Part shown: piece after piece, positions 39,888 through 41,959 of the stretch | How the letters are laid out: the number at the start of each line of letters is the position of its first letter | Position numbering within the stretch: position 1 is the first letter of the stretch | Origin: an uncultured Alphaproteobacteria bacterium | GTDB lineage: Bacteria; Pseudomonadota; Alphaproteobacteria; HIMB59; GCA-002718135 | NCBI GenBank assembly: GCA_902518705.1 | Contig: CABYHW010000006.1 | Coordinates: forward strand, 1-60,846 | DNA length: 60,846 nucleotides | Direction: 5' to 3' | Position numbers and translations under genes: made by a program | The notes under the pieces: generated by a model | What the model was told of the DNA's origin: nothing | What the model saw: the letters and a program-made list of their open reading frames with translations, nothing else | The model's database searches: none

Positions 39888-39973
39888 TTGGTAGGAGTAG
39901 AGGGAATCGAACCCACACCACCGAAGTGACCGGATTTTGAATCCTTCAAATAAATCAACCCCATTAAACTCCT
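39888..39973 (-). pseudogene. decayed tRNA-Leu copy (3' half conserved)
   Basis: The 57 bp 39888-39944 match the 3' part of the intact tRNA-Leu at 41801-41857 with one mismatch and in the same orientation. Beyond that, the rest of the tRNA aligns without gaps but only about half the bases match, so the D-arm and acceptor 5' strand are destroyed. A 13-base identity returns at exactly the same offset (39992-40004 and 41905-41917), so the whole locus was duplicated. It cannot fold as a tRNA. Confidence 0.8.
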
Positions 39974-40048
39974 AGTTTAGCTTCTAAGTAATACTTGGTT
40001 TTTATAACTAAGTCTACGAGCTTGTTGCATAAAAATAAGATTGCAAGT

Positions 40049-40067
40049 CAACCACAGGGCAACTTTT
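40049..40067 (+). repeat. 19-bp direct repeat, left copy
   Basis: CAACCACAGGGCAACTTTT is identical to 41749-41767. It is GC-richer than its surroundings and lies between the tRNA remnant and the first cargo gene. A single copy of the inner unit ACAGGGCAAC is present here. Confidence 0.75.
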
Positions 40068-40133
40068 CTTAATCTCAATAATCTTATATTTTGAACTCTT
40101 AACAATATCTTTTCATAATGGTAAGGTATCCTA

Positions 40134-40616
40134 ATGAGATATTTTTCTTTAATTTTATTTATCTTTTTTTCTTTAAAGGTTTTTGCAGTAGATACAGATA
40201 AGCCAGTTTGGGAACAAGCTGATAAACTGTTTTGCGAAATGCATTATTTTAATGTTTGTCAAAATATGGAATGTTCTTCTCATGATTTCAGACAAGATAA
40301 AGGATCAACCAGAGCAATAACTATTAATTTTAAAACAAATGAAATCAAAGATTTGCAATATATGAGAGAAAGTAAAGTCAGAAATGATATGAATTTAGAT
40401 CAAAAAATTATTTCAAAGATATTCACAGAGTCAAAACCATATGGAAGAAAAGAGAGTGTTTTAATAGTACAACCAGAAAGATATGGGGGTAGCACCTTAT
40501 TCAAAATATTCTATCTAGGAGGTTCTTGGAATCTAGATAAGAGTGACTCAGGCTGGAATAACGAAACAAAAAAAAATATTTCAAGCTATACTAACTTTAG
40601 TTGTGTAAACGATTAA
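40134..40616 (+). CDS. secreted protein of unknown function
   Basis: 160 aa; not recognised. A clear signal peptide (MRYFSLILFIFFSLKVFA, about residues 1-18) predicts export. The mature part has cysteines in LFCEMH, NVCQNMECSS and FSCVND that could form disulfides in the periplasm, a beta-rich middle and the closing motif NISSYTNFSC. No membrane helix follows. It lies 12 bp before the HNH nuclease gene on the same strand, inside the tRNA-bounded island, so the two probably form an accessory operon. Confidence 0.65.
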   Translation: MRYFSLILFIFFSLKVFAVDTDKPVWEQADKLFCEMHYFNVCQNMECSSHDFRQDKGSTRAITINFKTNEIKDLQYMRESKVRNDMNLDQKIISKIFTESKPYGRKESVLIVQPERYGGSTLFKIFYLGGSWNLDKSDSGWNNETKKNISSYTNFSCVND

Positions 40617-40628
40617 ACATATTTAAAT

Positions 40629-41711
40629 ATGGCTTGGAAAAGATATCCTAAATATCAAAAAAAAATTAAAACTTATAAAGATTACACACATTTTTCTTTT
40701 TCAAACATAGCCAAAAAAAAGGAACAATTAGAAAATAAAAAAGAAAAATTAGATAAGAAACTTATAGAGGTTTCATTCTTTGAAAGAAAAATTATACATT
40801 TCAGAGAAGGATTAGATAACAGACTAAAATCAAGAATTGATACGCTCTATGACCTAAAAGACAGTTATGTAAAAGTTTTAGAAGATGAAAAAACAGGGTT
40901 TTTTGAAAGAATGTTAGGTGATGAAAAATATGATGACAGAGCTAAAAACAAATTTCAATCTATTAAAACACAGATGAAGAATATTCTTAAGGAATGTAAA
41001 TCAACAGCTACAAAAATTGCCCAGCAAGAATTAGGTAAGATTCCAACATTTAATTTCGTTTGGGAAAACAAAATAAAAGGAGATCTTGAATACAATATTA
41101 ATTTTTTAAATTCTGAAATAAATAGATATGATTTAAAAATTGAAGATATTGATAATGAAAATTTTCTAACAAATTCTAAGTATTCTAGTTATGCTTTTAC
41201 AATTAAAAGAAATAATCCAAATTCTTTTTTAGAAGATAGTTTAGATTATTGTAAATTTGTAAAAGATAGGATTACAAGTGATTTAAATACAATAAGGGCA
41301 GATTTAAAACCTGTAGTTAGTGCTTATCAAATTATTGAAAAAAAGGAACAAAAGGAAAAAGAAAAAATTAAAAGAGCGAATGAAAAAGCAGATAAATTCA
41401 AAGCTCAAGCATATGCATTTCAGGAAAAGACCCGAGATTTAAGTGAAGAGATAAAAAAAGAAATTAGTGACCAGCAAAATATTTTTCCTGTATGCCCATA
41501 TTGTGAGCAAACACTGGGACTTGAGCCTCACGCAGATCATATTTACCCAGTAACTTTAGGTGGACAAGCTACACCAGAAAATATGGTTTATGTTTGCGCC
41601 AAATGCAATCTATCTAAAGGTGCGCTAACCTTACGAGAATTTATTAATAAAAGAAGTTTAAATAGAGATAGAGTAGAAAATAATTTATCATTATTGGGAA
41701 AGAAATTTTAA
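40629..41711 (+). CDS. coiled-coil protein with C-terminal HNH endonuclease domain
   Basis: 360 aa. Residues ~25-280 are Lys/Glu-rich and predicted helical/coiled coil (for example KKKEQLENKKEKLDKKL and KKEQKEKEKIKRANEKA). Residues ~286-335 form a treble-clef HNH nuclease: Cys289-x2-Cys292, HADHIYP with Asp303/His304, Asn318, and Cys323-x2-Cys326. There is no signal peptide, so it acts in the cytoplasm. The architecture (long sensor-like helical part plus HNH) and the island location suggest a DNA-targeting defence or addiction nuclease. That role is inference. Confidence 0.75.
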   Translation: MAWKRYPKYQKKIKTYKDYTHFSFSNIAKKKEQLENKKEKLDKKLIEVSFFERKIIHFREGLDNRLKSRIDTLYDLKDSYVKVLEDEKTGFFERMLGDEKYDDRAKNKFQSIKTQMKNILKECKSTATKIAQQELGKIPTFNFVWENKIKGDLEYNINFLNSEINRYDLKIEDIDNENFLTNSKYSSYAFTIKRNNPNSFLEDSLDYCKFVKDRITSDLNTIRADLKPVVSAYQIIEKKEQKEKEKIKRANEKADKFKAQAYAFQEKTRDLSEEIKKEISDQQNIFPVCPYCEQTLGLEPHADHIYPVTLGGQATPENMVYVCAKCNLSKGALTLREFINKRSLNRDRVENNLSLLGKKF

Positions 41712-41748
41712 ATAAATTAAGATCAAAAAAATTTATAGAATTACAGGG

Positions 41749-41767
41749 CAACCACAGGGCAACTTTT
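41749..41767 (+). repeat. 19-bp direct repeat, right copy (with extra tandem unit)
   Basis: Same CAACCACAGGGCAACTTTT as at 40049-40067. The 10-mer ACAGGGCAAC occurs twice in tandem here, at 41743-41752 and 41754-41763. The pair lies between the nuclease gene and the tRNA, as expected for recombinase arm sites at an element end. Confidence 0.75.
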
Positions 41768-41801
41768 TTAAATCTGAAATTTGATAGAGGCTAATTTTTG
41801 T

Positions 41802-41886
41802 TGGTAGGAGTAGAGGGAATCGAACCCACACCACCTAAGTGACCGGATTTTGAATCCGGCGCGTCTACCAGTTCCGCCATACTCCC
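41802..41886 (-). tRNA. tRNA-Leu(CAA)
   Basis: 85 nt including an encoded CCA. Acceptor GGGAGTA pairs with TACTCCT (first pair G-U), the D stem GCG/CGC brackets GAACTGGTAGA, anticodon stem CCGGA/TCCGG holds the loop TTCAAAA with anticodon CAA, and there is a long class II variable arm. The T loop TTCGATT is normal, but the T stem GTGGG/CCCTC has a U-U mismatch at its second pair. It reads UUG leucine codons. Its 3' half is the direct repeat bounding the adjacent island. Confidence 0.95.
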
Positions 41887-41959
41887 AAATTATTTTATTA
41901 ATATTACTTGGTTTTTAAAGTTTAGTCCATGAAGTTGTTCGGTAAAATAAAATAAGTTT

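Follow-up and report, generated by a model that had tools for sequence, protein, structure and literature searches.

A candidate CIME-like cassette without an integrase at tRNA-Leu(CAA) in a HIMB59 alphaproteobacterium

The ssrA islands of Dehalococcoides lie in tandem, are bounded by RNA genes, occur with or without a recombinase (of the serine type) and share attachment ends; for the integrase-less islands, treated there in a discussion of CIMEs (cis-mobilizable elements), accretion has been proposed as the way of moving (PMC3146451). The additive flexible genomic island fGI-2 of Methylophilaceae holds variable gene sets of 330 bp to 42 kb, mostly of unknown genes, bordered by repeats of the tRNA-Lys 3′ end (PMC10872708). 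Tycheposons, as outlined from Prochlorococcus work in the same source, are cargo elements of 4–200 kb that lie at tRNA genes of streamlined marine bacteria and encode a tyrosine recombinase (PMC10872708), and phage satellites of the PICI and PICMI type form a further group (PMC10803314 for PICMIs).

The window analysed here, a 60,846-nt stretch of DNA, is contig 6 of a 58-contig genome of 1.16 Mb that is 71% complete, from the order HIMB59 (AEGEAN-169), whose AG- genomes are discussed in PMC12416821. Two direct repeats of 57 nt (39888–39944 and 41801–41857) lie 1913 bp apart in the same orientation with one mismatch, exactly as a first-pass annotation of this DNA had reported, and both match the 3′ part of tRNA-Leu(CAA). 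The same annotation placed two genes of accessory character between the repeats; two ORFs are indeed the only ones there, and both are missing from the relatives searched. No integrase or relaxase match was found within the element, and the base composition of the island is unremarkable against its surroundings. Homology between its two borders, further than that annotation had noted, extends beyond 57 nt, with 39968–40034 and 41881–41947 70% identical at the unchanged spacing of 1913, and the left copy is therefore a degenerate whole tRNA gene with its upstream promoter region. The features of the locus, including the left end (LE) and right end (RE) of the element, are collected in Table 1.

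Table 1. Coordinates of the element at tRNA-Leu(CAA) and of its borders.
Feature	Position	Strand	Remarks
Left core, displaced 57-nt 3′ part of tRNA-Leu(CAA)	39888–39944	−	adjoins YqaA/VTT gene; in the G022 empty site the 57 nt run into the complete tRNA
Left end (LE)	39945–40078	.	degenerate tRNA-Leu 5′ half (39945–39973), tRNA promoter-like block, arm site
Promoter-like block in LE	−35 TAGACT 40016–40011; −10 TATTAC 39993–39988	−	17-nt spacer
Left arm site GTCAACCACAGGGCAACTTTT	40047–40067	+	two heptamer-like units, 11 bp apart
Promoter-like motif before cargo	40098–40133	+	TTAACA-N17-TAAGGT, start codon 6 nt past second hexamer
Cargo gene 1, 160 aa	40134–40616	+	contains cysteine; N terminus resembles a signal peptide; family hits all under cut-off
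Cargo gene 2, 360 aa	40629–41711	+	long helical region (predicted) and C-terminal HNH; begins 12 nt after gene 1
Right end (RE)	41740–41800	+	contains right arm site 41747–41767
Intact tRNA-Leu(CAA)	41802–41886	−	sole intact tRNA detected in the window
Putative crossover zone	41842–41857	−	minimal shared sequence, anticodon stem-loop; GACCGGATTTTGAATCC in related genomes

By anatomy, the cassette fits a CIME: its attL and attR are related (57-nt core repeats together with the arms of LE and RE), it lacks integrase and transfer functions, and an integrase is encoded by a relative at this att site, the element of genome G002, whose RE is identical to the window RE over 57 nt. Movement by accretion or in trans is hinted at by the tandem array in G030. 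It departs from the Dehalococcoides islands in pointing to a tyrosine integrase, to the anticodon region of tRNA-Leu and to cassettes of only 1–3 kb, and in having an LE with a degenerate whole tRNA and a promoter-like block. With fGI-2 it has in common a streamlined planktonic host, variable and mostly unknown gene content and tRNA 3′-end repeats as borders, but the tRNA here is tRNA-Leu, and arm sites are shared and an integrase-bearing relative has the same RE. The tRNA at its border recalls tycheposons, whereas its length of 1.9 kb and its lack of a recombinase set it outside the size and gene content of that group. Integron cassettes are recombined by IntI at attC hairpin sites. The resemblance to them lies in small one- or two-gene units with shared recombination ends and, as proposed here, an integrase acting in trans and tandem growth at one site; unlike integron cassettes, the present units are bordered by tRNA direct repeats with arm sites, not by attC, and each unit has its own promoter-like sequence. 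Integrase-less elements of this type are known elsewhere, and the cassette family is new to the HIMB59 lineage; we found no description of it in the literature searched, coverage of which is incomplete.

Comparison with relatives reveals both an unoccupied site and other occupants of it. In genome G022, a single tRNA-Leu stands between YqaA and flavin reductase; when the window flanks are joined at the core, they align with this arrangement across the junction over 1,399 bp at 90% identity. With a 62-nt RE query against 162 genomes of the order, strong matches lay solely beside tRNA-Leu(CAA), in G002, G030 (two), G036 and G121, with a diverged match in G012 and a true remnant, RE without LE, in G116. 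RE identity is 95–100% in G002, G030, G036 and G121, and LE is 82–89% identical in G012, G030 (two copies), G036 and G121. At least six cassettes follow one compact design of LE, forward cargo and RE with differing cargo, and their interiors are unrelated between genomes, ends excepted; the one exception is an LE plus one gene common to G030b and G121 (751 nt at 91%). The 1.1-kb cassette of G012 encodes one 238-aa lipoprotein with DUF7424. G030 carries two cassettes in tandem, one (G030a) with a 252-aa protein and the other (G030b) with a 189-aa protein and other genes. That 189-aa protein recurs with other companions in the 3.0-kb cassette of G121, and the cassette of G036, split over two contigs, has different cargo again. 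Sister cargo consists mostly of uncharacterised secreted, lipo- or membrane proteins, with no recognisable defence genes. Between the window and G121, LE (89%) and RE (95%) are closer than the host genes YqaA (68%) and DsbB (75%), a pattern that movement of the ends from one species to another would produce.

These observations bear out the initial suggestion of an island at the tRNA gene, which is upheld by the repeats, the empty site and the differing cargo elsewhere. The two checks that had been proposed with it, for a relative with an empty site and a single tRNA and for other cargo between the same ends, each returned examples, in G022 for the former and in G012, G030, G036 and G121 for the latter, with the G002 element having other cargo beside the same RE. 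The opposite outcome, with identical genes and two tRNA copies in every relative or with genes that belong to the core, was not observed, the cargo proteins being absent from the relatives searched. In other relatives, the genes that fill the tRNA interval, to the left or right of the tRNA, are different ones. The same cargo families occur in L101/L166 (G074) and L084 (G121), and in L175 (G089) and L068 (G036), on opposite tRNA-Leu sides or at other loci, which points to cargo exchange between element types. In many relatives, an MFS-like gene on the opposite strand ends inside tRNA-Leu (L049, L052, L054, L057, L065, L066), the C terminus of its protein, LVGVEGIEPTPPK, being encoded by the tRNA 3′ part. 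G012 (L055, 5433–6855) holds SufE as two short fragments with an intact copy ~1 kb off, suggesting local duplication or insertion.

Both ends of the cassette contain a candidate integrase arm site. GTCAACCACAGGGCAACTTTT (40047–40067) and GGCAACCACAGGGCAACTTTT (41747–41767) are the only two matches to the arm pattern in the 60.8-kb window, against 0.05 expected by shuffling. One lies inside each end, which agrees with the arm-like repeat near each end noted at first pass, and the repeat sits within a longer one of 44 nt at 82% identity. LE has the layout that many genomes show in front of their intact tRNA-Leu genes. It holds the promoter-like block TAGACT-N17-TATTAC, and the tRNA 5′ half is degenerate and not kept, a combination that suggests an ancestor with a complete tRNA. 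In G010, one gene lies between two complete tRNA-Leu copies. In the empty site, YqaA-DsbB-COQ7 begins immediately beyond the tRNA, and we considered whether the LE promoter serves to restore its transcription. This fits the window, G036 and G121, but it is not general, because an oppositely oriented MFS gene adjoins LE in G012 and G030.

The G002 element, of ~9.5 kb, is satellite-like and encodes a 332-aa phage-type tyrosine integrase (Pfam 2.6e-24; phrog_1 3.4e-57), a 730-aa protein with DUF5906/VapE-like domains (primase/helicase-like), a CHC2 zinc-finger protein and an HTH protein that matches excisionases weakly; no structural genes were recognised in it. This gene content resembles that of phage satellites, whereas the window element is without integrase, replication or regulation genes. 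The left end of the G002 element is unlike the cassette LE, which the G002 integrase might therefore be unable to process. The G030a cassette matches the 5′ end of the G002 integrase gene plus RE over 107 nt at 95% identity, with the start codon changed (CGCGAT vs CGCCAT on the written strand), and this vestige indicates descent of the cassette from an integrase-bearing element. The genome to which the window belongs, 71% complete, contains no intact G002-type integrase. It holds an N-terminal fragment of one beside tRNA-Gly, and its one intact tyrosine recombinase, on another contig, is unrelated to the G002 type; a helper would thus have to be encoded in the missing 29% or be brought in by other DNA. 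No contig in IMG/VR had the right-end arm, the G002-type integrase, the helicase, the promoter motif or the HNH protein. Short ORFs corresponding to the N-terminal part (~90–180 aa) of the G002-type integrase occur in several genomes (G000:C1:197817-198185 (L149/L129), L127, L133–L137), and may represent integrases in decay or an arm-binding domain on its own.

In G106 and G035, integrases related to that of G002 (85% and 77%, respectively) adjoin a copy of the tRNA 5′ part, not the 3′ part. The sequence common to 3′-restoring and 5′-restoring elements narrows to GACCGGATTTTGAATCC, in the anticodon stem-loop, and we infer that strand exchange takes place there. An element may accordingly be read, from these junctions, as able to carry either tRNA half. 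In the window, the intact tRNA-Leu(CAA) would take its 3′ part from the element and its 5′ half and promoter from the host; the single mismatch between the 57-nt repeats sits in the presumed element-derived copy, and a later mutation could also account for it. Promoter-side elements at tRNA-Leu (L150 6492–8366; L139; L140) carry a tRNA promoter of their own and a second copy of the tRNA 5′ half, and promoter-side sites show 11-bp repeats that are arm-like but differ in sequence (AGCGTCG, GGGCGTC, GTGTCG).

The first gene points inward from LE in all cassettes. Upstream of the window cargo, positions 40098–40133 match, in diverged form, a 30-nt motif that is spread across a genus, CTTAACAATCTCCTTGGTTGGTGGTAGGATAA, which also precedes the cargo in G002, G121 and G036 and lies inside G030b; in G012 and G030a no copy was seen. 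A one-mismatch search located CTTAACAATCTCCTTGGTTGGTGGTAGGATAA in 37 of the 162 genomes of the order, all of one genus, and the reversed control gave 0. Where the start codon is readable, it stands ~5–15 nt before a conserved exonuclease-like gene or before small genes of secreted, membrane or MORN-like type, and we read it as a putative promoter, possibly leaderless. Its contexts include L186, L166, L175 and L183.

Since the cassette ends are common to other cassettes and to an integrase-bearing element, the cassette probably moves by borrowing that integrase. We consider it likely that 39945–41857 is a small, non-autonomous, CIME-like cassette derived from integrase-bearing elements and mobilised in trans, inserted at the anticodon-arm region of tRNA-Leu(CAA). 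RE, the tRNA 3′ part (core) and LE would then be the ends of a tyrosine-integrase element family at this tRNA gene, in which the integrase and replication genes have gone and a two-gene cargo stands in their place. A related satellite-like element, for example that of G002, would supply an integrase in trans, and this enzyme would bind the paired GGGCAAC arm sites and excise a circle, which would insert into tRNA-Leu of another cell. On insertion, the element would restore the tRNA 3′ part, and the displaced 3′ fragment would remain beside YqaA. Mobilisation in trans, the passage of DNA between cells and the position of the crossover are what we infer from the shared ends and junctions.

The first-pass annotation had left the element as either decayed or moved in trans, and the conserved ends favour the latter. 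A dead remnant, that is, an island that inserted with an integrase, has since lost it and is decaying, with the shared ends as leftovers, would explain why no helper integrase is resident and why the tRNA 5′ half in LE is degenerate, and G116 demonstrates that real remnants exist. We nevertheless regard it as unlikely, given that one compact design recurs with differing cargo in at least six cassettes, that LE and RE remain 82–100% identical across species, that G030 has a tandem pair and that both window ORFs are intact. Homology of the left copy to a whole tRNA and promoter at the constant spacing of 1913, together with the two full tRNA-Leu copies around one gene in G010, could alternatively reflect a tandem tRNA-Leu duplication that gained genes between its copies by homologous recombination, with no site-specific recombination involved. 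The conserved RE and arm sites, however, are not tRNA-derived and are common to the integrase element, G030a retains the integrase vestige and the empty site is precise, all of which make such an origin highly improbable.

The cargo lends itself to more than one interpretation. The 360-aa protein matches HNH Pfam families (1.6e-9 and 1.8e-8), has the motif CxxC...DH...GG...EN...CxxCN intact and, judged by family, is likely a DNA nuclease. Of the long coiled coil plus HNH initially described, the HNH part stands on these matches, and long helices are predicted only in a low-confidence single-sequence model (such models were poor, with mean pLDDT of 53 and 40). For the 160-aa secreted-like protein, DUF6485 was rejected at an E value of 0.0016, under the curated cut-off, and no counterpart was found in the 161 other genomes of the order. 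No full-length HNH protein was recovered, itself apart, from 60 relatives, 385 genomes of the class or 398 of the phylum; these searches gave short HNH-only matches to an unrelated core gene, and a two-sequence HNH profile found one relative, again HNH-only. A Thauera plasmid protein has the same layout, with 37% identity over the last 125 aa, and a tyrosine recombinase gene lies ~1.6 kb from it. The best PADLOC match was to PtuB of Septu (PtuAB), weak at 8e-6 and covering the HNH region and flank only; unlike in Septu, there is no adjacent ATPase PtuA, and the partner is the 160-aa protein, which has no ATPase match.

A dedicated anti-phage system, with a coiled-coil HNH nuclease and a secreted protein acting together, would accord with the intact HNH motif, the weak matches to PtuB and other nuclease models, the accessory location at a tRNA site and the recombinase near the Thauera relative. 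We find this doubtful: the matches span the HNH domain only, neither PtuA nor another ATPase partner is present, sister cassettes carry other, mostly envelope-like genes, and no relative of the gene pair was found in the relatives, order, class and phylum searches. The idea of a minimal defence cassette put forward at first pass finds no support past weak HNH-only matches, and sister cargo includes no recognisable defence genes; defence is one use that the probable nuclease may have. The guess that we prefer, at low confidence, is that the cassette supplies an accessory cell-envelope protein and a DNA nuclease against competing DNA.

More broadly, the mobilised cassette may belong to an integron-like exchange without an integron, a possibility that we put forward with some reserve. 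One-operon cassettes with common ends and their own promoter-like sequence, often the shared genus-specific motif, would gather at tRNA-Leu(CAA) across a marine genus, with satellite-like elements providing the integrases that shuffle them; exchange at the anticodon arm, restoring either the tRNA 3′ or the 5′ half, would allow stacking on both sides. Classical mobile elements are scarce in streamlined ocean bacteria, yet accessory genes vary from one cell to its neighbours. If true, cassettes of 1–3 kb that borrow a satellite integrase would offer a concrete and testable route of gene exchange, and metagenomic reads would allow a direct count of their ends, which are short enough for this.
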